The translations under genes were made by a program, and so were the position numbers. A stretch of 57,200 nt of DNA from Bacteroidaceae bacterium. GTDB lineage: Bacteria > Bacteroidota > Bacteroidia > Bacteroidales > Bacteroidaceae. The notes under the pieces are model-generated. The model made no database searches. It saw only the letters and a program-made list of their open reading frames with translations, and was not told where the DNA came from. Shown in pieces: positions 290 through 45,589 of this stretch; within the stretch, counting starts at the first letter, position 1; every line of letters begins with the position of its first letter. The stretch covers positions 1 through 57,200 of the forward strand of contig JAFRQD010000002.1 of NCBI GenBank assembly GCA_017428785.1, given 5' to 3'.

Positions 290-550
290 AGAGGCATTAC
301 TATCCGCCCCTGAAGGGGCGAACGAGTGGCCGAAGGCCGAAGTGGGGTGAACAAGTCGCTAACCATTCTTACCCCACCCCTACCCCTCCCCTTAGATGGG
401 AGGGGAGTTGGGATGCTGCGCTCTCCCCAATTGCTCCGCTGCTAACAGACAATTGCCCTTAGATGGGAGGGGAGTTGGGGAGCGAAACTCTCCCCAATGC
501 CTGTCACAATCGGGCAATTGCACCTAGAAGCAGAGGGGAGTTGAAGGGGC
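290..550. repeat. C/G-rich intergenic repeat block with about 68-base tandem copies
   Basis: No gene is supported here. The text CTTAGATGGGAGGGGAGTTG occurs at about 391 and 459 (68 bases apart), with a decayed third copy at about 523. The spacers between them are also similar (CTCTCCCCAA..., CAATTGC...). A small hairpin CGCCCCTGAAGGGGCG lies at 305-320. The block runs directly into the 22-base array that follows. Confidence 0.6.
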
Positions 551-569
551 GTCAGAGGGTACCTGAAAA

Positions 570-756
570 CGCCGGCTGCGGCGATGGCAATCCCCGGCTG
601 CGGCGATGACCATTTCCGCACGCGGCGTTGGTCAATTCCGCACGCGGCGTTTTTCACCCCTTCACAGAGGGCTTTTTCACTGTGCCTATCTACCCGGAAA
701 ACCAGACACAGGTAAGTCGAAAAGTTAACACGCTTACTTGTGTGCCTTAACAGCAG
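570..756. repeat. 22-base phased dyad array, copy A
   Basis: Four GC-rich cores begin at 570, 592, 614 and 636, exactly 22 bases apart: CGCCGGCTGCGGCG, CCCCGGCTGCGGCG, then TTCCGCACGCGGCG twice. Continuing in the same register, weaker units follow at CACA 663, CCTA 685, CACA 707 and CACG 729. The unit at 663 (CCCTTCACAGAGGGC plus T-run) also resembles a small terminator. Copy B at 10018 shares the register and most unit types. Confidence 0.85.
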
Positions 757-6628: not shown

Positions 6629-9600
6629 ATGAACAACAGAACAACCTTTACACGAGCCATGATGGCATTGCTCCTTGCTCTGTTCTGCATCTTTGGCGCT
6701 TTTGCTGAGGATATCACAGAGAAACAGGCACTTGAGCAGGCATTGGACTTCTTGGCAAAACAGCAGGCTATTCCCGGCAAGCCTGGCAACAATCAATCTT
6801 CAGCACAGAAACAACTCACGCTGGCCGACAGGGTGAGCGGACTCTATGTCTTCAACGCAGAAGACAATAGCGGCTTTGTGGTAGTCAGCAACGACGACCG
6901 CACCTACCCCATTCTGGGCTTCAGCGAGAAAGGCAGCTTCAGCACAGACAAGATGCCCGACAACATGAAAGCTTGGCTGCAGGGCTATGCCGACGAGATA
7001 GCATGGCTGCAGAAGAGCGGCTCAAAGAAAGCCGACGCCATAAAGCCCGCCAAAATGGAGAAGGTCGGCACGCACAGCACAGCTGCCGTAGCTCCTCTTT
7101 GCACCTCGACCTGGAATCAGGATGCGCCTTACAACAACCTCTGCCCTACATATAGCAGCAGCGGCAGGTGCGTCACGGGCTGTGTGGCAACAGCAATGGC
7201 GCAGGTGATGTACTACCACAAGTGGCCGGAAAGTTCAACAAAGGCTATACCCGGATACACCACCTACAGCTACGGATTGAACCTCTCTTCCCTGCCTGTC
7301 ACAACATTCGACTGGGCAAACATGAGGGACAGCTACTCCGGTGGCTATACAACGGTGCAAGGTAATGCCGTAGCGAAGCTGATGCAATACTGCGGCTATG
7401 GCGTGCAGATGGACTACGGCCCATCGTCGGGTGCTTACACGGAGGACGTCGCCATTGCCCTGCGTGAATACTTCGACTACAATCCCTACACCACACGCTT
7501 CGTGTCGCGCAGTTCCTATACCTATGCCAATTGGACCGACATGATGTACTATGAGGTGTCGCATGGTCGCCCTGTATGCTATGGCGGCACATCAACTGGT
7601 GGCGGACACGAGTTCGTATGCGACGGCTACACATTCGAGAGCAACACCGACTTCTTCCATATCAACTGGGGATGGGGCGGCGATAGCGACAACTACTTTG
7701 TCCTCTCGGCTCTCGACCCCGACCAGCAAGGCATTGGCGGCAGCACATCGACCGACGGATTCAATTCGGGACAGGATGCCGTCATCGGCATACAGAAATC
7801 GACGGCAAGCGGCACGACAGCCGACATCCCTGCCAATGTGGTTGACCTCACGCTGAACAGCGTTAGCTTAAGCCGCAACCCTGTTGCGCCATATTCGACG
7901 GTTAGCGTGAACTTCAACATCACCAACAACAGCTCAGATCCCTATGACGGCGACCTCTGGCTGACTCTGAGGAAAGACGGCAACGACTACCTTATGGAAG
8001 TCGAGAGCGTTCTCTTGGAGCCCGGCACAACACAAGACGTCGCCATTCCATACACCCCCACAGAGACTGGCACATACACCCTTATGCTTACTTACATCAA
8101 TTCTGTAGGCGAATATGTTACCTATGAAGGAAAGTCGGTCACGCTGAATGTTATAGAATACCTGACCAACGAAGTTGTTCCCGTCTATGGCTATTGGACC
8201 GACAACTACAGCAGGAGCCAGTTTATCATTGGCGAAACTAACTTGGAAGACATGATTGGCGGCATGCTCAACGCCATGACTTTCTCTGCCTCGCAGACAT
8301 CCGTCAGCTGGGGAAATGCAAAGTTCGACGTCTATCTGAAGGAAACGACAGACAACACCATCTCCGCCCTGAAAGATTGGGCCACACTCGACAAGGTTTA
8401 CTCCGGCAGCCTCTCCATCGTCAATGGCGAGATGACCATCACCTTCAGCGAACCCTATCCCTATGTAGGCGGCAACCTGCTGGTCGGCATCAACCAAACC
8501 GCCACAGGCTCCTACAAGAATAGCTCATGGTACGGACAGACCGTTAATGGTGCATCTGTAGGCGGCTACGGCACACAAATCAGCCAGCAGAACTTCCTGC
8601 CCGATGTGGTCTTCGACTTCACACCCGGAACCGGCATCTATGTCAGGAAGCCAAAGGACCTGGCTGTCAGCTACACTGGCGGAGATGAGGCTATAGTAAG
8701 CTGGACCAGCGATGAGCAAGTGTTCGATATCGAGGTGAATGGCGAGACTATCGAGGATGTAGGCAATCCCTGCACTTTGACAGACCTTGAGTGCGCCACA
8801 ACATATTCCGTTAGGGTACGCGCGAAGAATCAGGGTGTGGTAAGCGATTGGACAGAGCCCGTCAGCTTCACCACGAACCTCTCCCTCCAGTCCTGCCAAA
8901 TCAGGCTTGACCTTACAGACACCACCGGCGACGGATGGAACGGCAACGCCATAAAGATAGTGGACGCACTGACTGGCACAGAACTTGGAACATATGCCAA
9001 TACGAATGAAGCAGGGAAGAACGAAGCACAGACTTATTATGCAGAAGTTCCCGACGGCAGAGACATCCAGTTCCAATGGGTGAACGGCAACTACTTCCAC
9101 GAATGTATCTATGTGGTTTACGATGTGGCTGGAAATGAAATCTTCTCCGGCAAAGGAAAGATTAAGACGCCCGTCACATATCATGTGGACTGCAACGCCG
9201 CCACAGCCATTACGCTGGTCAACGACGAAGACAACACTTCGCTGATTGAGAATCACAACGGCGCGACCAATTGCGAAGTCACGCTGCAGGGCCGCACGCT
9301 CTTCAAGGACGGTTCATGGAACACCCTCTGCCTGCCTTTCGACTTGACAATATCCGAAAGTCCATTGGAAGGCGCTATCGTTAAGGAACTCGACACCACG
9401 ACTTCCAGCTTTAACGGCAGCAGACTGACGCTGAACTTCACGGATGTTACAGACATCAAAGCTGGTAAGCCCTACATCATCAAGTGGGAAAGCGGTAGCG
9501 AAAACATCGTCGATCCCGTGTTCACAGGTGTGACGATTAATAAGGAGCTCGTGCCTGCTGTGGTAGCGAATGCCATCACTTTTGCTGGCAACTATGCTCC

Positions 9601-9901
9601 TGTGCCTTTGGCTGCCGGAGACCAGAACATTCTCTACATAGGTGCTGGCAACCAGCTCTACTACCCTGCCCCGGGTAGCAATATCACCCTCAATGCCTTC
9701 CGCGCATGTTTCCAACTGGCCGGTACTGCAAATCACATCAAGGAACTGATGATGAACACCGACGAGGATTTTGCAACAGGCATTGTTTCTCTCCTTGGAG
9801 AGACGGAAGAGGGAGCCGTTATCTACAACCTCGCCGGTCAGCGCATGAGCAAGACTCGACAGGGTATCAATATTATAAATGGAAAGAAAGTATTAAAGTA
9901 A
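6629..9901 (+). CDS. Secreted streptopain-like cysteine peptidase (family C10) with T9SS-like tail
   Basis: A SpeB-like protease of 1090 residues. A signal peptide (MALLLALFCIFGAFA) is followed by a Spi/I69-type inhibitory prodomain at about 25-140 (GLYVFNA...GFVVVSNDDR). The catalytic domain is about 150-390, with nucleophile Cys185 in TGCVATAMAQ, His327 in GGGHEFVCDGY, and the downstream INWGWGG oxyanion/Trp segment. Then come an Ig-like domain (about 400-510), one copy of the beta domain also found twice in the neighbouring C25 enzyme (about 512-670), a fibronectin III domain, and a long C-terminal module ending YNLAGQRMSKTRQGINIING. It is expected to be made as a zymogen and exported by Sec and T9SS. 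The last 1.5 kb is closely related at DNA level to that of the C25 gene, suggesting duplication or gene conversion. Confidence 0.92.
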   Translation: MNNRTTFTRAMMALLLALFCIFGAFAEDITEKQALEQALDFLAKQQAIPGKPGNNQSSAQKQLTLADRVSGLYVFNAEDNSGFVVVSNDDRTYPILGFSEKGSFSTDKMPDNMKAWLQGYADEIAWLQKSGSKKADAIKPAKMEKVGTHSTAAVAPLCTSTWNQDAPYNNLCPTYSSSGRCVTGCVATAMAQVMYYHKWPESSTKAIPGYTTYSYGLNLSSLPVTTFDWANMRDSYSGGYTTVQGNAVAKLMQYCGYGVQMDYGPSSGAYTEDVAIALREYFDYNPYTTRFVSRSSYTYANWTDMMYYEVSHGRPVCYGGTSTGGGHEFVCDGYTFESNTDFFHINWGWGGDSDNYFVLSALDPDQQGIGGSTSTDGFNSGQDAVIGIQKSTASGTTADIPANVVDLTLNSVSLSRNPVAPYSTVSVNFNITNNSSDPYDGDLWLTLRKDGNDYLMEVESVLLEPGTTQDVAIPYTPTETGTYTLMLTYINSVGEYVTYEGKSVTLNVIEYLTNEVVPVYGYWTDNYSRSQFIIGETNLEDMIGGMLNAMTFSASQTSVSWGNAKFDVYLKETTDNTISALKDWATLDKVYSGSLSIVNGEMTITFSEPYPYVGGNLLVGINQTATGSYKNSSWYGQTVNGASVGGYGTQISQQNFLPDVVFDFTPGTGIYVRKPKDLAVSYTGGDEAIVSWTSDEQVFDIEVNGETIEDVGNPCTLTDLECATTYSVRVRAKNQGVVSDWTEPVSFTTNLSLQSCQIRLDLTDTTGDGWNGNAIKIVDALTGTELGTYANTNEAGKNEAQTYYAEVPDGRDIQFQWVNGNYFHECIYVVYDVAGNEIFSGKGKIKTPVTYHVDCNAATAITLVNDEDNTSLIENHNGATNCEVTLQGRTLFKDGSWNTLCLPFDLTISESPLEGAIVKELDTTTSSFNGSRLTLNFTDVTDIKAGKPYIIKWESGSENIVDPVFTGVTINKELVPAVVANAITFAGNYAPVPLAAGDQNILYIGAGNQLYYPAPGSNITLNAFRACFQLAGTANHIKELMMNTDEDFATGIVSLLGETEEGAVIYNLAGQRMSKTRQGINIINGKKVLK

Positions 9902-9913
9902 ATACATCAGAAT

Positions 9914-9958
9914 ACAGCCCGCTTGGCAATCAGTCAGGCGGGCTGTTTTGTTTTATAT
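9914..9958 (+). terminator. Terminator after the C10 peptidase
   Basis: The same AGCCCGC...GCGGGCT hairpin and TTTTGTTTT run as after the C25 gene; similarity continues for about 10 bases past the T-run. Confidence 0.85.
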
Positions 9959-10017
9959 AGTCGGATTATCAGCCCTTTTCAGGGGCGATGTTCACCCTCT
10001 CATTTTATGCTTCCAAA

Positions 10018-10215
10018 CGCCGGCTGCGGCGATGGCAAATTCCGCGTGCGGCGATGGCAATCCCCGGCTGCGGCGTTGGGCAATTCCGCGTGCGGCGTTT
10101 TCAACCCCCTTACGGAGGGCTTTTTCTCTATGCCAATCAACCCCGAAAACAACGCACGCGTAGTTTGCGATTTATCCACGTGTAGTTTGGCAACTAAGCA
10201 CGCCTAGTTTGTGAT
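10018..10215. repeat. 22-base phased dyad array, copy B
   Basis: Four GC-rich cores start at 10018, 10040, 10062 and 10084 (for example TTCCGCGTGCGGCG). In the same register come TACG at 10111, a decayed unit at 10133, and then AT-rich units with CACG at 10155, 10177 and 10199 (each followed by ...TAGTTTG). The first AT-rich unit is exactly 66 bases, three periods, from the equivalent base of the last GC-rich unit. The array fills the gap between two convergent genes. Confidence 0.85.
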
Positions 10216-10224
10216 TCAGGCCTG

Positions 10225-11091
10225 TCAGAACTCGAGGTCTGCAAAGTGGGGATTGTGGTCGGAGAGTATGAACTTGGGGTCTGGAACCTCAATGTGGGAG
10301 TGATTGACCTTGATGGTCGGGGTGATGAAGATGAAGTCGATTTTCTCGCACTTGAGGGGCGGAATCTGGCAGAACTGGTGGAAGGTGTAGGTTGTGCCGG
10401 TATGATTGGGCGTCATGTGGTATGCATCGTTCATGCGGAACTTGTCCGTCACCATCGTGGTATATGCTTCGTCGTCCTCCGTCACATTGAAGTCGCCCGT
10501 AACGACTGCAGGTTGCTTGCCGACGATTTGCTGAATCTTCTTCATGATGAGCTTTGCACTTTCTCGACGAGCAGTGACGCCCACGTGGTCGAAGTGCGTA
10601 TTGACGGCCATGAAGATTTTGCCCGACTGCTTGTCTCTCAGCTTGACATAGCTCGCCACTCGCGGGAGGGCAGCATCCCAACCCTTCGAGCCTGCCACAT
10701 CAGGCGTCTCGCTCAGCCAGAAATTGCCTTTCTCCAGAGCCTCGAACTTGTCCTTGCGGAAGAAGACGGGCGTGTACTCACCCTGCTTTGCACCATCGTT
10801 ACGCCCTACCCCGACATAGTCGTAATCGGGCAGAAGGGCAAGCAAGTCCTCGAGCTGGACATGCAGAACCTCCTGCATACCCACGATATCGATGTGCTTC
10901 GACTTAATGTAGTTGGCCACTCTGTCCTTCCGAACCTTCCAACCATAGCCGGCCTTATCGTCGCCATCGTTCTGAAGGCGGATATTGAACGTGCCCCATC
11001 GAACCGAACAATTAGCCGGTTTTGCGGTCTTACATTGAGACACAAAGGGCACAAGCATTGCAAAAACCAATAGCAGAGACTTCTTTACCAT
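10225..11091 (-). CDS. Secreted endonuclease/exonuclease/phosphatase-fold protein
   Basis: A 288-residue member of the EEP (DNase I-like) superfamily. The family motifs appear in order: FNIR, the metal-binding Glu in MQEV, NTHFDH, GDFN, KIDFIF and the terminal SDHNP. An N-terminal hydrophobic segment (LLLVFAMLVPFV) indicates export; the Cys at residue 20 follows VSQ, a poor lipobox, so a periplasmic protein is more likely than a lipoprotein. EEP enzymes hydrolyse phosphodiester or phosphomonoester bonds in nucleic acids, phosphoinositides or sphingomyelin. The substrate cannot be decided here, although small secreted Bacteroidales members of this type are common. It is transcribed alone from the promoter at 11128-11135. 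Confidence 0.85.
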   Translation of the reverse strand: MVKKSLLLVFAMLVPFVSQCKTAKPANCSVRWGTFNIRLQNDGDDKAGYGWKVRKDRVANYIKSKHIDIVGMQEVLHVQLEDLLALLPDYDYVGVGRNDGAKQGEYTPVFFRKDKFEALEKGNFWLSETPDVAGSKGWDAALPRVASYVKLRDKQSGKIFMAVNTHFDHVGVTARRESAKLIMKKIQQIVGKQPAVVTGDFNVTEDDEAYTTMVTDKFRMNDAYHMTPNHTGTTYTFHQFCQIPPLKCEKIDFIFITPTIKVNHSHIEVPDPKFILSDHNPHFADLEF

Positions 11092-14276: not shown

Positions 14277-14324
14277 ATCTTTAATTAAAAATTGAAAATT
14301 GAAAATTGAAAATTATGAGGGGGA

Positions 14325-18740: not shown

Positions 18741-21575
18741 ATGAAGAAACTGTTTCTCCTTTTGCTGGCGGTTGTGGCTGGGGCTGCGACTGCTTGGGCT
18801 GACGATTTCACGGAACTCCTGACGAACGGGGCTTGCGACGGCACCTTCAGCGGTTGGGAAAAGACTGACGGCGGCAACGGATGGGGCATCGGGCAAGACA
18901 ACGACGGCTCGTATTTCTGGGCTTCCTCGTTTGAACGATGCACGCTCTACCAGACTGTTGTCCTTTCCGAAAAGGGCATCAGCGATGCCGACATCGACGC
19001 AGGGAATGTGTCGTGCAAGGCTTCTGCCATGATAAAGGCAATATGGGACCCGCAGAACACAGGCCGCGGCTCCGATATCGCGAAAGTGTATGTCGAGATG
19101 CAGGATGACAGCGGCAATGTGCTCTCTACCATCACCGTGCTCGACGACAGGAGCATCTTCCTGGAATGGACGCTCTTCCAGACCAACGAGTTCACTCTGG
19201 TTTCAGGCACACGCAAACTGAAATTCGTGGTCGAGGGTGATGACAGCGCCTATTGGGGCGGGCAGTTCGGCCCGTGCTTCAAGAATGTCTCGCTCATGGC
19301 TAACAACAATAACGGCTGCGGCCCGAATGGTCACGAATGGGGGGAATGGAGCACAACTAAAGACCCCTCCTGCACGGAAGCTGGCTCCCGAACCCGCACT
19401 TGCAATAATTGCGGTATGGTGGCAAGCGAGACAATCCCTGCCTTGGGGCACGACTGGGGAGAATGGGAGCTTTCTTCCGCCCCCTCCTGCACGGAAGACG
19501 GATACAACGTCCGTTCCTGCCAACGCTGCGGATTGACAGAAAAAGAGAAAATCCCTGCCTTGGGACACGACTGGAACAGCAATGGCGTTTGCAACAGATG
19601 CAGAGCAAACAGGCTCACCACCGATGGGTATAGCGCCTTGACCTACATCGTATCGACAGGCGAACAGGTCTTCAACACGGGCTACATCCACAAGGCGAAC
19701 ACGTTTGTGGAGATGGACTGCGTGGTGAAGCAGAATCAGGACAGGAACTACGAGGCGCTGCTCGGCGCTCGTCTGGGTAGCTACAAGAACAACGCCTTCT
19801 GCTTCTTCTCGCGCTTCGCCGGCAAGGATGTTCCTTGCTTCAACCGCTCCGGCAAAGAGGCGACGGGCGAAGGCTTCGTCTATGACGAGCGCATCTTGCT
19901 GTGGTGCACCTATGACAATGCCACCTGGTTCAGGCAAAGCAATCCGCTCGTAGAGGTAGGCAGCATCTACAATGCGGGTACAGCCGACGCAGGCAAGACG
20001 CCGATGTTCCTCTTCAACCTGAATACAGCCAACACGGAAGGCGGAGTGCAGGCCGACGGCTCTCCCTGCCGCATGAAGCTCTACAGCTGCAAAATCCATG
20101 AAGACCAGGTGCTGATTCACAACTACGTCCCCGCTAAGGACAAAAACCACGTTGTGGGACTTTATGACTTGGCGACAGGCACTTTCGCCGGCTCCATCAC
20201 GGAAAAACCCTTCTACGAGGAAGAAGGAATAACGTATCCGATAACCGTCGAACAAATGGGTTCAACTATTCCAGTGGATTATCCAAGCAAGGCAAAACCA
20301 GGAGAAAATGTCAGTGTGAATTATGATTACACAGGGAAACCGGTGCCCAAGGTGAAAGTGCTGGACGACAACGGGAACGAAATATCCTCATCTATCCTAT
20401 CGCTGGGGAACAATAAAGAATATGTAGAATTCACTATGCCCGCCTGCCCCGTGACTGTCAGAATCATTAATGAACCAGATATAATCAGAGAGATACCCGA
20501 CGGATGTGAAGTCAAGACATATTTGCGCCACTCTGCCGCCATCTACAATCTATTTGGATATTACAGCGAAGAAGTGTCAGGCAAGTTCAACATTGCATTT
20601 GCACCAGACGGAACGGTTTACATACAAGACCCGGCATGGGTTATCGACAATGAGCACAGTTATGTAAAGGGCACCTACAACAAGGCGACCGGCATCATCT
20701 CCATCCCGACAGGACAGTTCCTGACCTGGAACTCGTCGCACTATTATGGGCTGCAACTCTGCTGGGGCTCAACCCTGATTGTTACGGAACCAGATTCCGA
20801 AACGGGTAACGATAGATACAATTTAAGCGTGGCGTATGACCCGAAAGTCAAAACAATCGAATTCCGCGTTGACGGCGACTGTCTGTATCTGCTGAATTCC
20901 GAAGGAGACGTGCATGCCGAATACCCGAAGAATTATAATGCTACGGGTATGTATCTCATGTATAGTGACGACAATTCGGCGCGTGCATTAGAGTTCGCCA
21001 ACACAGATGCCGACGGAAAACAAACACCATTCGGCACCATTTTGAATGTTGTCCCGGCCATCCCTGCCGATCCCGTCATTATAGAATGGCATGACAGCGG
21101 AAGCCCAGATGGTTACAGTAAATTAATGTTCACCATGCCATTATATGACATCAACTGCAAACCCATCGACCAAGACCTCTTGAGTTACAGCATCTTCACC
21201 GACAACGGGCATGGCGCAGAACTCTTCACCTTCCAGACTTCTGTTTATTATACCCTCCAAGAAGACCTTACCGAAATCCCCTATACGCTTACTGGTTATG
21301 ACTTCTATCCCAGTTACGTCTATTTCTATCGCACCAATGCCGAAGGCTACGAACCCTTCTTCACACAGAGACTCGGCATGCAGGTTTACTACACCGTAAA
21401 CGGCGTCCGCAACCAGTCGAACCTCGTCTGGATAGACAATCCCGTCGGCATAGACGAAGTGAAGGCCGAACAAGGCAACGGCGGCGACAAGATCTACAAC
21501 CTCGCAGGCCAACGCCTCGAGAAACTGCAGAAAGGCATCAACATCGTAAACGGCAAAAAGGTCTTGATTAAGTGA
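18741..21575 (+). CDS. Large secreted lectin-like surface protein with Cys-rich repeats and T9SS-like tail
   Basis: A 944-residue exported protein; ATG 18741 is preferred over a TTG two codons earlier. The signal peptide is LFLLLLAVVAGAATAWA. Residues about 22-190 look like a galactose-binding-type beta sandwich. Residues about 195-285 hold two and a half copies of a Cys-rich repeat with GHxWGxW, SCTExG, RxCxxCG and IPALGH, whose four Cys per unit could bind zinc. Residues about 290-500 look like a laminin-G/concanavalin-like fold (NTGYIHKANTFVEMDC). The rest is beta-rich and unassigned. The end, YNLAGQRLEKLQKGINIVNG, is a T9SS-like sorting signal. No catalytic motif is visible, so adhesion or glycan binding is an inference. 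Confidence 0.85.
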   Translation: MKKLFLLLLAVVAGAATAWADDFTELLTNGACDGTFSGWEKTDGGNGWGIGQDNDGSYFWASSFERCTLYQTVVLSEKGISDADIDAGNVSCKASAMIKAIWDPQNTGRGSDIAKVYVEMQDDSGNVLSTITVLDDRSIFLEWTLFQTNEFTLVSGTRKLKFVVEGDDSAYWGGQFGPCFKNVSLMANNNNGCGPNGHEWGEWSTTKDPSCTEAGSRTRTCNNCGMVASETIPALGHDWGEWELSSAPSCTEDGYNVRSCQRCGLTEKEKIPALGHDWNSNGVCNRCRANRLTTDGYSALTYIVSTGEQVFNTGYIHKANTFVEMDCVVKQNQDRNYEALLGARLGSYKNNAFCFFSRFAGKDVPCFNRSGKEATGEGFVYDERILLWCTYDNATWFRQSNPLVEVGSIYNAGTADAGKTPMFLFNLNTANTEGGVQADGSPCRMKLYSCKIHEDQVLIHNYVPAKDKNHVVGLYDLATGTFAGSITEKPFYEEEGITYPITVEQMGSTIPVDYPSKAKPGENVSVNYDYTGKPVPKVKVLDDNGNEISSSILSLGNNKEYVEFTMPACPVTVRIINEPDIIREIPDGCEVKTYLRHSAAIYNLFGYYSEEVSGKFNIAFAPDGTVYIQDPAWVIDNEHSYVKGTYNKATGIISIPTGQFLTWNSSHYYGLQLCWGSTLIVTEPDSETGNDRYNLSVAYDPKVKTIEFRVDGDCLYLLNSEGDVHAEYPKNYNATGMYLMYSDDNSARALEFANTDADGKQTPFGTILNVVPAIPADPVIIEWHDSGSPDGYSKLMFTMPLYDINCKPIDQDLLSYSIFTDNGHGAELFTFQTSVYYTLQEDLTEIPYTLTGYDFYPSYVYFYRTNAEGYEPFFTQRLGMQVYYTVNGVRNQSNLVWIDNPVGIDEVKAEQGNGGDKIYNLAGQRLEKLQKGINIVNGKKVLIK

Positions 21576-21651: not shown

Positions 21652-21682
21652 GCTCAAAGCACTAATCAAATATGGGCCATTT

Positions 21683-21730
21683 AAATCGTAAATGGTAAAT
21701 CGTAAATGGTAAATCGTAAATGGTAAATTA
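21683..21730. repeat. Three 14-base tandem repeats before metA
   Basis: AAATCGTAAATGGT is repeated three times, ending four bases before the metA start codon region. It takes the place of a usual leader, and no Shine-Dalgarno-like sequence is seen. Confidence 0.8.
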
Positions 21731-22718: not shown

Positions 22719-24588
22719 AAAGACCCTCACAAACTCCCCCCTAAAGGGGGAGGAGCCAGGCGAGTTTCCCGCGAAGGAAGCCTCCCCTTTAAGGGGAGGT
22801 TTGGTAGGGTCTGGTCTCCTCGAACTCCTCTCCCCTGCCCGCAACTTGGAGTGCGGCATCGCTGCCATCGAGCATGGGGCGGATGCCGTCTATATCGGGG
22901 CTCCACGCTTCGGAGCAAGAGCGGCTGCCGGCAATTCCGTCGAGGACATCCACAAGCTTTGCGACTACGCACATCAGTTCGGCGTCAAGATTTATGTCAC
23001 CCTCAACACCCTGCTTCGCCCCGAAGAATTGGAGCAAGCACGCCTCATAGCGTGGAAACTCTATCATGCCGGAGCAGACGCTTTCATCACGCAAGATGAA
23101 GCCCTCCTCAAGCTCGCTCTTCCGCCCGTTCCCCTTCATGCAAGCACGCAGATGGACAACCGCACGAAGGAAGATGTTGCCCGTCTTAAAGAATTAGGAT
23201 TCAACCAAGTAGTCCTCGCACGCGAACTTTCGCTCGAACAGATAAGGGAGATTCACGAAGCCGTTCCCGAGGTGACGCTCGAAGCCTTCGTTCACGGCGC
23301 ACTTTGCGTCTCTTATAGCGGCAGATGCTATGCTTCGGAGTATTGCTTCGGACGCTCGGCAAATCGTGGCGAATGTGCGCAGTTCTGCCGACTGCCTTTC
23401 TCGCTCGAAGATGCAAACGGCAACACGCTCATCAAGGACAAATACCTGCTCTCGCTCAAGGATATGAACCGCCAGCAGCACCTCGAAGAGATGATGGACG
23501 CAGGCGTGCGGAGCTTCAAAATCGAAGGCCGACTGAAGGATGTCGCCTATGTCAAAAACGTGACCGCCAGCTATCGCGAAGCACTCGACGCCATCATGAA
23601 ACGCCGTCCGGAATTCGCGCATTCTTCTTATGGCACAAGCACTTACACCTTCCATCCCGACCTCTCCCGCAGTTTCTCTCGCGGCTACACCGACTACTTC
23701 CTCTTCGGTCGCACAAACGACCTCGCATCACCCGACACGCCCAAAAGCCGAGGCCGCGAAGTGGGGCACGTGAAGGAAGTGAGATGGAAGAGGAAAGACG
23801 GAAGAGGTTGCATAATCGTCTCATCTACAGAGACTTTCAACAATGGCGACGGACTTTGCTTCCTCGACGGAGAAGGAAAGTTGCAAGGCTTCCGCGTGAA
23901 TCGAGCAGAAGGGAATCACCTGTATTTTAATTCAAATTTAATAAAATCAAATTTCAAAATCAGGAAGGGCGACAGGCTTTGGCGTAGCTTCGACAAAGGT
24001 TGGGAAGACATGATGAGCGGCAAAACGGCTGAGCGTCGCATCTCAGCACAATTCCTGCTCGAAGAGACTGAGCAAGGATTCCGCCTCACTTTCACGGCAG
24101 AAGACGGCTCAAACCGAAGCGAGGAGTTCGTCCAGGAACATCAACTCGCCAGAACCGACCAAACGGCCTCAATCAAGGAAGTCCTCAGCAAACTTGGCGA
24201 CACACCATACCAATGCAAAGAGGTTTCCGTAAACTTCTCCCAACCTTGGTTCATCCCGAGAAGCATACTGGCAGAGTGGCGAAGAAGAATTATTGAAAAT
24301 TCAAAATTGGAAATTGAAAATCCTATACACAAAGACACAACTCACCCCACAACTTTCAATCCCCAATCTTCAACTTTCAATCTTCAATCTCCCTTGATGA
24401 CCTGCCGCTTCTGCCTTCTCCACGCTTGGGGACAATGCAAGAAGGAGAAGCCAGCCGCAAATGAAATGGTAAATGGTAAATGGTTAAATGGTAAATGGCA
24501 AGAGCCGCTTTACCTCGTCCTCGGTGATGGGCGTCGATTCCGGCTCGAGTTCGACTGCAAACGATGCGAAATGTTAGTATTGAGATGA
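22702..24588 (+). CDS. U32-family (TrhP/RlhA-like) RNA hydroxylation protein
   Basis: A 628-codon frame of the peptidase U32 family. Members such as TrhP and RlhA use an iron-sulfur cluster and prephenate to hydroxylate tRNA or 23S rRNA; no protease activity is implied. The core starts at LLELLSPARNLECGIAAIEH. The Cys set of the cluster is in ALCVSYSGRCYASEYCFG and GECAQFCR. The C-terminal third is the DUF3656-like extension found in larger members. Three stretches look like repeat insertions: the first 33 codons (element 22721-22812), about 33 codons at 24292-24391, and a TAAATGG run at 24465-24498. The true start may be TTG 22801, since ATG 22702 lies inside metA and would translate the repeat. 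Confidence 0.88.
   Translation: MMRYTKKTLTNSPLKGEEPGEFPAKEASPLRGGLVGSGLLELLSPARNLECGIAAIEHGADAVYIGAPRFGARAAAGNSVEDIHKLCDYAHQFGVKIYVTLNTLLRPEELEQARLIAWKLYHAGADAFITQDEALLKLALPPVPLHASTQMDNRTKEDVARLKELGFNQVVLARELSLEQIREIHEAVPEVTLEAFVHGALCVSYSGRCYASEYCFGRSANRGECAQFCRLPFSLEDANGNTLIKDKYLLSLKDMNRQQHLEEMMDAGVRSFKIEGRLKDVAYVKNVTASYREALDAIMKRRPEFAHSSYGTSTYTFHPDLSRSFSRGYTDYFLFGRTNDLASPDTPKSRGREVGHVKEVRWKRKDGRGCIIVSSTETFNNGDGLCFLDGEGKLQGFRVNRAEGNHLYFNSNLIKSNFKIRKGDRLWRSFDKGWEDMMSGKTAERRISAQFLLEETEQGFRLTFTAEDGSNRSEEFVQEHQLARTDQTASIKEVLSKLGDTPYQCKEVSVNFSQPWFIPRSILAEWRRRIIENSKLEIENPIHKDTTHPTTFNPQSSTFNLQSPLMTCRFCLLHAWGQCKKEKPAANEMVNGKWLNGKWQEPLYLVLGDGRRFRLEFDCKRCEMLVLR
22721..22812. repeat. 92-base inverted-repeat element at the 5' end of the U32 gene
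   Basis: Left arm AGACCCTCACAAACTCCCCC... (22721-22752) and right arm ending ...GGTTTGGTAGGGTCT (22781-22812) are about 32-base imperfect complements. Each arm also contains its own small palindrome (CTCCCCCCTAAAGGGGGAG and CCTCCCCTTTAAGGGGAGG). This resembles a MITE or REP-type element. Confidence 0.8.
24292..24391. repeat. Low-complexity inverted-arm element inside the U32 gene
   Basis: Left arm ATTGAAAATTCAAAATTGGA (24292 on) and right arm CAACTTTCAATCTTCAATCT (24371-24390) are inverse low-complexity repeats around a 30-base core, inserted in frame before the conserved LMTCRFC segment. A second run of TAAATGG heptamers lies at 24465-24498. Confidence 0.7.
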
Positions 24589-29522: not shown

Positions 29523-29551
29523 AACGGAACAGGGATAATCGACGAACATCA

Positions 29552-29622
29552 CACGAGATGTTTATGAATTTCACACGTGAAGTTTTCAAACATCACGAGA
29601 GACATTTCCATACCCCTCACAA
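29552..29622. repeat. 22-base phased dyad array, copy E (short)
   Basis: CACG occurs at 29552 and 29574 (22 apart), with TTTCACACGTGAAGTTTTCA around the second. The third CACG is at 29594, two bases out of register, and CCTCACAAGGGAG restores the register with CACA at 29618. Confidence 0.65.
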
Positions 29623-29704
29623 GGGAGCAGAAACGCCGCCCTACTCCTTTACATATATAAAGATGTAGAAAAAGCGCCGATAGAACAAAATAATTGCGGA
29701 AATG

Positions 29705-33765: not shown

Positions 33766-34875
33766 ATGAAAAAGTATATCTTGTGCTTCTTGCTCAGCCT
33801 GGCAGCCACGGGCTTGTCCGCACAGACAAAGGTCGGTTCTTTAATCTCAGGCCTTTCGTCGTCGTCGCAGACAGAGGTTGAGCCATTCGTGCCGGGCAGT
33901 ACGCTCGAAGGCGTTGCCTATTATCTTCCACGGACAGCCTTCCGCATCACCATCATTGCAGAGAAGACAACCACCAAGCCCGGCGACTTCTACAAGTATG
34001 CCGACCGCTACCTTCGCCTTCAAAACGTTCCTACAGAAGAGAGCGTGCAGTGGAGCCTGAAGAGTATCAAGATGGAGCCCTACGGCAAGCCCGACAAGAA
34101 CAAGGCTTTCAGCATCAAGATAAAGAGCAAGACTGTAGCCCCGCTCGTAGGTTTAAGTCGTGACGGACTTCTGCTGAGCATCAACTGCGATGCCGAGGAA
34201 GACTTCCTGCCCGACCTCCCCAAACCAGAGAAAGGTCCTGCTCCCGAGAATCCCCGTTCCTATATGACGCAGGAAATCATTGCAGCAGGCAGTACGGCGA
34301 AGATGGCCGAACTGTGTGCCCAGGAGATTTACGACATCCGGGACAGCAAGAACTCACTCATTCGGGGCGAAGCCGACAACACGCCCAAGGACGGTGCCCA
34401 GCTGAAGCTCATGCTCGACCAGCTCGACAAACAAGCCGCCGCCCTTGAGTCGCTCTTCAGCGGTACCACTCAAACCGACACAGAAGTCTTCTCCCTCTTC
34501 TTTGATCCTCAAGAAGAGACCGACCACAATGTGCTTTTCCGCTTCTCGCAGAAGCTTGGCGTATTGGATTACGACAACTTGGCCGGCGAACCGGTCGTCG
34601 CTTCAATCAAGGCTTTGGAGACGATTCCGACGGCAGTTCCTTCGGAAGAGGTTGCCAAGAAGCGCGCAAAGATGGAGCACGGAGTCTATTATAATGTGCC
34701 AGTCCGGACAAAGATAAAAGTCACATTCGACGGTCAGGAATACGTCAACATGGAGACTCCGATGGCTCAGTTCGGAGTCGTTGAAATGCTCTCCAACACG
34801 CTCTTCGACAAGAAGACAAATACGCAGGTAACCTTCTTCCAAACCACCGGCGGAACGAAGGATGTGATGGAGTAA
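33766..34875 (+). CDS. Secreted DUF4831-family protein
   Basis: A 369-residue exported protein with signal peptide YILCFLLSLAATGLSAQ. It has the DUF4831 pattern I recognise from Bacteroidales: GVAYYLPRTAFRITIIAEK early, PGDFYKYADRYLRL, and near the end HGVYYNVPVRTKIKVTF. No catalytic motif is seen and the function is unknown. The stop codon is followed within five bases by a 22-base array on the minus strand (copy C). Confidence 0.82.
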   Translation: MKKYILCFLLSLAATGLSAQTKVGSLISGLSSSSQTEVEPFVPGSTLEGVAYYLPRTAFRITIIAEKTTTKPGDFYKYADRYLRLQNVPTEESVQWSLKSIKMEPYGKPDKNKAFSIKIKSKTVAPLVGLSRDGLLLSINCDAEEDFLPDLPKPEKGPAPENPRSYMTQEIIAAGSTAKMAELCAQEIYDIRDSKNSLIRGEADNTPKDGAQLKLMLDQLDKQAAALESLFSGTTQTDTEVFSLFFDPQEETDHNVLFRFSQKLGVLDYDNLAGEPVVASIKALETIPTAVPSEEVAKKRAKMEHGVYYNVPVRTKIKVTFDGQEYVNMETPMAQFGVVEMLSNTLFDKKTNTQVTFFQTTGGTKDVME

Positions 34876-34879
34876 AAAA

Positions 34880-34960
34880 CGCCGCACGCGGCGATGCCCA
34901 ACGCCGCACGCGGAAATGCCCATCGCCGCAGCCGGGGATTGCCATCGCCGCACGCGGCGT
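34880..34960 (-). repeat. 22-base phased dyad array, copy C (inverted)
   Basis: Cores start at 34880, 34902, 34924 and 34946, exactly 22 bases apart: CGCCGCACGCGGCG, CGCCGCACGCGGAA, CGCCGCAGCCGGGG and CGCCGCACGCGGCG. Read on the minus strand, unit order and spacers (GATGGCAATCCCCGGCTGCG) match copy A. It begins four bases after a stop codon. Confidence 0.85.
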
Positions 34961-35065
34961 TTTCAGACCCACCAAGGGACGTTGAAAAACGCCCCTTTTT
35001 TTGTTATTTTTTGCAAATAGCGAAACTTTTATTTGCATATTGCAGCACATATTATAAATAATGTT

Positions 35066-44979: not shown

Positions 44980-45302
44980 CGAAAATCCTCGCACATAGCA
45001 AAGTAAAGCGCTACATTTTTTTTATCTCTTGCATGAGTGACAGGATAATCCTTGTGTAAGATAGTGTGTTGAATCCGCCGGTTTTGCAGATTTTCATTGT
45101 ACGGAGCATCTACATTTAGGATGATTGGAGCATCCTTAGAAGGCACAATACTTGCCATTTCATATAACCACACAAGGATGACAAAAAACAATTCGACAAC
45201 AAAGATGATGATGATATTGGTTGCGAGCCACGGAAGTAAAGCATATCATTGCCGGAAAAATCTTTACATATTCCAAACAATAAATGTGTGCTTACAAAAC
45301 TT
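44980..45302. other. Gap without a supported gene
   Basis: Short frames exist on both strands (up to 78 codons on minus, running into the pheT promoter), but none shows a ribosome binding site, a recognisable domain or a terminator. I see no tRNA or other RNA gene. Confidence 0.5.
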
Positions 45303-45440
45303 CACGCGTTAAAAATCCAAACATCTCACGTGAAGATTGGAAAGTTCACACGTGAAAATCACAAACTTCACACGTGAACTTTGCCAACTTCACACGTGTA
45401 GTTTGCAACTTTATCATGTGACGTTTGGAAACTGTTCAAG
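45303..45440. repeat. 22-base phased dyad array, copy D (AT-rich type)
   Basis: CACG occurs at 45303, then at 45327, 45349, 45371 and 45393; from 45327 onward the steps are exactly 22, and CATG at 45415 and CAAG at 45437 continue the register. The unit is TTCACACGTGAA plus a spacer such as CTTTGCCAAC, with arms TTCAC and GTGAA around AC. Confidence 0.85.
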
Positions 45441-45589
45441 TAAAGAAAACAAACCACTCATTAACAAGCAGTTGGAAGAAGACATAAAAAGAGGCTGTTT
45501 GAAAGCAACTTGAGACTTACGGTTTAGCAAGTCATAAGTCTGCACACACATTCCGCAATCTTATTTCTATGAAAAATCCTTTACATTTT

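Follow-up and report, generated by a model that had tools for sequence, protein, structure and literature searches.

It is clear that the genome of the Bacteroidaceae bacterium considered here (G000; 2.98 Mb, 84% complete, in a genus sampled by 139 genomes) carries a large class of intergenic arrays in which short dyads recur every 22 bp, in most arrays within a shared outer frame, while the letters of the inner arms differ from array to array and turn over between genomes at places that are conserved at the two sites tested. The best explanation, offered tentatively and at a little short of an even chance, is that these are phased operator arrays for a putative two-fold symmetric DNA-binding protein of fast-changing specificity. 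The window from which the class is described is the whole stretch of 57,200 nucleotides that was analysed, and its features are collected in Table 1.

In the array between the genes at 6629..9901 and 10225..11091 of the window, a GC-rich set of four dyads (10020-10095) and an AT-armed set of three (10154-10207) follow a common 22-bp register. As a preliminary description of this DNA had stated, the register is maintained across the 66 bp between the two types, the step from 10090.5 to 10156.5 being 3 x 22. The same description counted seven or more consecutive positions; the 22-base steps stand and the continuity does not, the layout being four plus three with two register positions in between, one of them occupied by the hairpin at 10105-10125 and the other without a clear dyad. 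Its AC centre fits the AT-armed dyads only, the GC dyads being centred on CT or GT on the plus strand (AG or AC on the opposite strand). Nor do all dyads come to lie on one face of the DNA, as with a helical repeat of 10.5 bp a 22-bp step makes 2.1 turns, a drift of about 34 degrees per unit, and by the same arithmetic a single face would be kept only near 11 bp per turn. The hairpin adjoining the array may well be a terminator. The repetition itself is strong in both parts: in the GC part 51 of 78 positions are identical at lag 22, where 5000 dinucleotide shuffles reach 36 at most (mean 21.1, sd 4.1), and in the AT part 30 of 50, where shuffles reach 24 at most (mean 12.2, sd 3.1).

Table 1. 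Arrays, dyads and neighbouring genes in the window.
Feature	Coordinates	Strand	Basis
GC-type array, second in window, likewise four-unit	526..691	.	lag-22 scan, GC-dyad scan
Left neighbour, Peptidase_C10 with Inhibitor_I69 (Spi) and fn3 domains, converges on array	6629..9901	+	ORF, domain search
GC-type cassette, four 22-bp units, short A-run/T-run ends (CAAACGCC ... GGCGTTTT)	10014..10101	.	letters, GC-dyad scan
GC dyad 1, CCGGCTGCGG	10020..10029	.	CCG-NNNN-CGG
GC dyad 2, CCGCGTGCGG	10042..10051	.	CCG-NNNN-CGG
GC dyad 3, CCGGCTGCGG	10064..10073	.	CCG-NNNN-CGG
GC dyad 4, CCGCGTGCGG	10086..10095	.	CCG-NNNN-CGG
Terminator-like hairpin, CCCCCTTACGGAGGG + T5, centred roughly half a base away from the register	10105..10125	+	letters; folds as separate hairpin
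AT-armed dyad 1, GCACGCGTAG, register position +6, AC centre 10156-10157	10154..10163	.	letters, register
AT-armed dyad 2, CCACGTGTAG, register position +7, AC centre 10178-10179	10176..10185	.	letters, register
AT-armed dyad 3, GCACGCCTAG, register position +8, AC centre 10200-10201	10198..10207	.	letters, register
Right neighbour, Exo_endo_phos protein, converges on array	10225..11091	-	ORF, domain search
AT-type array (TTTCACACGTGAAGTT-like)	29523..29626	.	lag-22 scan
GC-type array, orientation reversed	34857..34998	.	lag-22 scan, GC-dyad scan
AT-type array, about 5-7 units (AACTTCACACGTGAAGTTTGC-like)	45282..45461	.	lag-22 scan

The autocorrelation check proposed with the preliminary description found strong enrichment at lag 22 beyond this array, in the window, in the rest of G000 and in relatives. 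Over lags 10-39 the window holds five arrays at lag 22 and at most two at every other lag. Tandem repeats of 7 bases (AATTGAA, TAAATCG, AAATGGT) at 14283-14314, 21682-21728, 24292-24390 and 24464-24498 add to its peaks at lags 14 and 21. In 726 kb of G000, a quarter of the genome in 41 stretches, lag 22 gives 88 arrays; its harmonic 44 follows with 70, then lag 21 with 17 (these include 7-mer repeats and a separate 21-bp family), lag 14 with 14 and lag 20 with two, and lag 23 has none. Six of the stretches were positioned around hits (L007, L023, L024, L107, L109, L113), and when these and the window are removed the remaining 550 kb gives 71 arrays at lag 22, two at 20 and none at 23. Extrapolation to the whole genome gives about 361 arrays from the 726 kb, and about 385 when the unselected 550 kb is taken instead. 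The family of period 21 in G000, with ACGCAAGCTGCGTA-like dyads, was seen at L006 4005, L010 14826, L013 9339, L017 549 and L018 2377 (0-based).

Most arrays are variations on one unit. A CACG core is present in 79 of the 88 arrays in G000 (39 of GC type, 40 other) and in 31 of 39 from 20 relatives, and units with this core have a roughly palindromic frame of 18 bp, A-W-(C)-N4-CACG-N4-(G)-W-T, and a linker of 4 bp. The alignment drew on non-overlapping stretches and was limited to rows with a CACG core, the CACG being fixed by selection, so that only the outer boxes are evidence; these boxes, A-A at -7/-6 and T-T at +9/+10, carry 0.8-1.55 bits per base in the non-GC consensuses (40 from G000, 30 from relatives), with A in 37/40 and 24/30 at -7 and in 32/40 and 21/30 at -6, and T in 33/40 and 22/30 at +9 and in 37/40 and 26/30 at +10. 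The third letters of the frame are weaker (C at -5 in 28/40 and 21/30, 0.7 bits; G at +8 in 23/40 and 18/30, 0.4-0.6 bits) and in G000 fall below some inner positions, which counts against the operator reading. The inner arms, at 0.3-1.0 bits in G000 and 0.1-0.8 in relatives, are mixed, with 30 distinct arm pairs in the former and 26 in the latter. Among GC dyads, 109 of 115 neighbours under 60 bp apart are spaced 22, and the 12-bp linkers, of 56 kinds, have T at position 4 in 109/109 and A at position 9 in 108/109, so that the GC unit reads A-W-Y-N-CCG-NNNN-CGG-N-R-W-T. The GC and AT types of the window array are most readily taken for one frame in two arm dialects, and look less like two kinds of site; the common frame disfavours treating them as unrelated. 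Several dialects coexist in one genome and even in one array, and families lacking CACG (TCATGA/GCAATTGC, GACCTAGGTC, TTCGCGAA and others) retain the period.

The units are symmetric beyond what their composition by column provides, with a dyad symmetry of 0.60 paired vs 0.51 column-permuted and z>2 in 51 of 133 arrays (14 of 147 were omitted, having a score under 0.58 or lying too close to an end). Dyad centres are purine-pyrimidine in 333 of the 575 tallied (AC 117, GT 96, GC 75, AT 45). A stricter symmetry of the whole 22-mer, at p<0.05, is found in 26 of 86 array consensuses vs 8 of 54 at control lags, and this counts against the operator reading. The two arms covary in the non-GC units of G000 at positions 1-5 (z 3.1-7.5). 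In relatives the covariation is weak, position 3 alone reaching z 2.7 under a within-locus permutation that has little power, in a sample whose units are not all independent, as it includes named loci sharing contigs with other relative stretches. GC units of G000 are anti-complementary at positions 4 and 6 of their arms (z -3.9 and -5.7), which gives the impression that a perfect palindrome is being avoided.

The arrays lie between genes. By codon-usage scoring, 94 arrays of G000 are distributed over tandem (28 + 27), convergent (16) and divergent (13) regions and contig edges (8), leaving two within predicted genes, against 14 of 52 in frames of at least 90 amino acids under a less refined ORF caller; among relatives one of 53 is inside a predicted gene. 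There are 84 arrays per 250 intergenic regions over 60 bp in G000. Their density there is higher in convergent regions (16 in 12.9 kb) than in divergent ones (13 in 21.7 kb), a contrast that is less clear in relatives (17 arrays in 18.2 kb of convergent and 14 in 18.4 kb of divergent regions). An array is found 3' of the end of the Exo_endo_phos gene in several relatives as well as in the window; the named relatives at this gene are, with few exceptions, assemblies of uncultured Bacteroidaceae, Prevotellaceae and Bacteroidales, many of them ruminant-labelled.

This placement bears on the proposal that the arrays are rows of RNA hairpins, acting in the transcript as bidirectional terminators or 3' stabilisers. 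The window array does sit between convergent genes next to a T-run hairpin, its cassette folds end to end as one long hairpin followed by a U-run, and the convergent bias of G000 points the same way, but divergent regions hold arrays too (13 of 94 in G000, 14 of 53 in relatives), the fold of the AT type is weak, and fold energies are no better than in shuffled sequence (z for the GC part -0.20 and -0.78, and for the AT part 1.19 and 0.54). On the sense strand of tandem arrays G-U pairs number 161 vs 188 for A-C, no excess, and symmetry of this kind, with which the folding agrees, points to DNA rather than RNA as the level of action. A transcript-level role is consequently improbable, and the hairpin array suggested in the preliminary description is left unsupported. 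In Rfam, positions 9800-10400 of the window gave five matches, none reaching the gathering score, and both a known Rfam family and an intrinsic terminator were rejected for the array, with matches below threshold and stems no stabler than composition predicts. The orientation of GC units relative to that of the genes shows no clear tendency, 21 tandem cases dividing into 7 of the same and 14 of the opposite direction.

The shared register is real across the genome and not in the window alone. Within 250 bp of 39 GC cassettes, 27 of 101 CACG/CGTG cores fall in the register of the cassette vs 4.6 expected (p 5e-14), and with the window removed 22 of 94 flanking cores do so (p 2e-10); some of these in-register cores are degenerate GC units. 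The layout of the window array, GC units followed by a gap and then AT-armed units in phase, recurs at L104 and L111.

Arrays persist at places where their letters do not. At one tandem intergenic site an array is present in 14 of 16 resolved relatives (among these 14, that of L164 is weak at 0.56 and its region long), in dialects that include CACACGTGAAGTTTGGCATTTA (G058), AAGTACGTGTACTTATTGCCGG (G105) and CACACTAGTTAATCGCAATCGT (G116), and at a second site in 10 of 14; both sites were selected for array presence in G000, and 4 of 20 and 5 of 19 loci, respectively, failed pairing. At L180 (G114) there are two GC dyads 22 apart in a region below scannable size. Four regions that are arrayless in G000 have arrays in 0/12, 0/14, 1/19 and 1/20 relatives, the last (L144) being a weak AT-rich case. 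At a convergent site, 4 of 13 relatives have an array and one more has two units, arrays having been gained and lost there. Seen by eye, the sequence immediately flanking the array is common to G079 and G045 while the units of the array are not, which suggests that arrays may be rewritten in place. Unit pairs alike at 16 or more of 22 positions make up 24% of 120 pairs from the same genome, 4.8% of 167 from the same locus in different genomes, 4.4% of 2267 sharing neither, and 0% of shuffled pairs; this comparison skips low-complexity units and takes as locus classes the arrays near the middle of each locus. Dialect tracks genome more than locus (rank test p 0.012), with a small locus signal in the slightly greater likeness of same-locus arrays across genomes, compared with that of unrelated arrays (p 0.014).

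Ordinary slippage during replication, acting on a short palindrome that has no function and with the common period reflecting descent from one ancestral array, would account for units that are alike inside an array and for numbers that vary (2, 6 and 8 by eye at one orthologous site). It fails to explain one period over unrelated dialects, a register shared across gaps, or dialects that follow the genome, and is very improbable.

The class recurs through the genus and in other genera, with a period that is mostly 22 and in some 21 or 23. Among 341 kb from 20 close relatives there are 42 arrays at lag 22, seven at 21 and none at 19, 20 or 23, and 362 kb in 20 stretches of the genus, two or three of them selected around GC hits, gave nine at lag 22. 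In 20 stretches of the family (19 from outside the genus) there were 11 rows at lag 22, three at 23 and five at 21, several of which are simple repeats; eight of these stretches were positioned around hits of the ACACGTG pair search, and the one from G157 is without an array. Other families of the order gave one lag-22 array in 237 kb (18 stretches). ACACGTG pairs at an allowed spacing occur in 29 of 121 family genomes, where the reversed control matches many genomes as well; the pairs listed are mostly 22 apart in G122, G157, G240, G263 and G235 and 23 apart in G206. The 22-bp arrays are far more widespread than the GC type: among the 139 genomes of the genus the strict GC pair was counted 309 times in G000, 357 in G114 (where 4 of the 28 listed have a 21-bp GC spacing) and 76 in G146, one to four times in ten others and not at all in 126, the reversed-pattern control giving 0 in all 139. 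In G230, of another genus, stretch L207 has period-21 arrays with strong palindromes (GATATTTTCAAAAATATC-like) at 1207-1326 and 19873-20000 beside a period-22 array. The control pattern GTGCACA...GTGCACA is frequent in G253, G266 and G230 (59, 50 and 11 forward places), which suggests a further dialect in other genera.

The main rival of the operator reading is a family of selfish repeats on the model of BrickBuilt, minisatellite or MITE-like, whose cassettes would copy to new intergenic places or overwrite older arrays, the 22-bp unit being the trace of a mobilising enzyme or of plain descent. We regard it as possible, though clearly short of probable. The GC type indeed has the behaviour of a cassette of four units that was amplified: the unit number is exactly four in 34 of 39 chains, the cassette ends AAAACGCC/GGCGTTTT are inverted repeats at or near which many BLAST matches end (when two other G000 cassettes are matched to further cassettes, many alignments stop at the corresponding borders or a few bases off), and the lineage bursts confine abundant GC pairs to three genomes vs 0-4 in the other 136 of 139. 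The gain and loss of arrays at one convergent site, and the membership of BrickBuilt, a tandem intergenic repeat, in the same size class and the same order, are also as such a family would have them. Against it, no target duplication is seen by eye in the inspected flanks of GC cassettes, borders keep arrays while letters change, and flanking cores stay in register. Neither RAYT nor Cas1 is general in these genomes. A Y1_Tnp match is missing from 13 of 18 sampled genomes of the genus, and the single copy in G000, RAYT-like, lies amid other palindromes in a 3.3-kb locus without a lag-22 array, so that a RAYT-driven REP element was disfavoured; a contrary point is the Y1_Tnp locus of G013 (L153), with a 22-bp array of about 8-9 GGCCATAAGCTCACGAGTCATC-like units at 1014-1252, a few hundred bases from the gene, whose closeness may be chance at such array density. 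The RAYT-like gene of G000 (L152 1300-2000, C56) is flanked by palindromes of its own (CCCTGAAAGGGC, CCAGGGCGTTGCCCTGGG), similar to those flanking the Y1_Tnp of G013, and looks like a separate REP system. Cas1 was found in only 2 of 10 genomes, which told against duplication of a fixed length of the Cas1 type and, with units contiguous and no unique spacers between them, against a CRISPR array. A plasmid or phage origin of the GC cassette was also set aside, the window cassette having no match in plasmid and phage collections. Operator role and selfish origin may both be true in turn.

The clustered operator named in the preliminary description remains the best reading; its register is real and genome-wide, the transcript-hairpin alternative is not supported, and a segregation site would be unlikely given some 360 dispersed sites. 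A dimeric DNA-binding protein, or a few paralogues, would dock side by side, perhaps cooperatively, on the 3-8 units of an array, with contacts to the frame that stay constant and contacts to the N4 arms that vary; a change in specificity would then shift the arms in concert across the genome and so give rise to dialects. The array would probably act as a nucleoprotein block at the borders of transcription units, by insulation, as a roadblock or in chromosome anchoring. A two-fold symmetric protein whose specificity shifts would be expected to have operator arrays of this kind, fixed in spacing and outer frame and conserved in place, with arms that vary together over a genome, and the A-A/T-T outer boxes round the CACG core, with symmetry above permutation, are features of operator type. 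On the other side, several dialects per genome mean that the operator model requires paralogues or loose recognition, the presence of arrays in convergent, tandem and divergent regions indicates no single border function, and the fixed length and lineage-specific bursts of the GC cassettes resemble a mobile element. The weak arm covariation in relatives, the anti-complementary positions of the GC units, the slight locus signal and the 21-bp spacings of G114 also tell against it.

A broader form of the operator reading, which is less likely than not, is a family-wide system of chromosome marking, in which border arrays with private lineage dialects are read by a putative trans-acting protein while places, spacing and frame stay constant; if true, it would be a bacterial counterpart to fast-evolving specificity systems such as centromere satellites. 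Stable places and spacing with concerted turnover of letters are unusual in bacteria, and by arithmetic (some 360 arrays of about 100 bp) about 1% of G000 belongs to this one unexplained class. Should the arrays be read by a protein, that protein would be a previously undescribed organiser, on a global scale, of gene borders in a common group of gut bacteria; otherwise the arrays would be an unusually regular selfish repeat.

The class is not assigned to BrickBuilt, REP/RAYT, CRISPR or iterons, as the features of each that were tested are lacking. The 22-bp iterons of plasmid R6K are tandem direct repeats at one replication origin, on which one protein is bound side by side. The arrays resemble them as tandem sites of about two helical turns and differ in their palindromic units and in their number, 88 arrays over 41 chromosomal stretches in place of one origin cluster. 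Porphyromonas gingivalis belongs to the order Bacteroidales, as does the source genome. Its BrickBuilt minisatellite/MITE is described, in the available portions of the report, as intergenic tandem units of 23 nt with some dyad symmetry and non-identical copies at many loci, comprising 19 elements with a common consensus and 1-22.8 units, most with a leader and/or tail and terminal inverted repeats (PMC4596501). Set against that partial description, the present class is distinguished by about 360 arrays of mostly 3-8 units, a period that is mostly 22 and many unrelated consensuses; the GC cassettes, the only type compared in this respect, end in AAAACGCC/GGCGTTTT and have no common leader or tail by eye in the flanks inspected. 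The remark in the preliminary description that it knew of no described element with such a layout agrees with the accessible text of open-licence PMC papers, where nothing closer than BrickBuilt appeared and where absence is weak evidence. REP/BIME elements with RAYT are, like these arrays, short intergenic palindromes, high in copy, clustered and lineage-specific, and the fixed 22-bp phase seen here has no counterpart in the sections of that account available (PMC3733652). From a Bacteroidales species also comes a regulator site of comparable build, that of BT4338 in Bacteroides thetaiotaomicron, which the available part of its report gives as 22 bp, palindrome-like, with the consensus wwwTATGTTnTAnAACATAwww (PMC6989115); it shares with the present units their length and palindrome-like form, and differs in a consensus distinct from the CACG frame and in its place, as described there, at a promoter rather than in an array.
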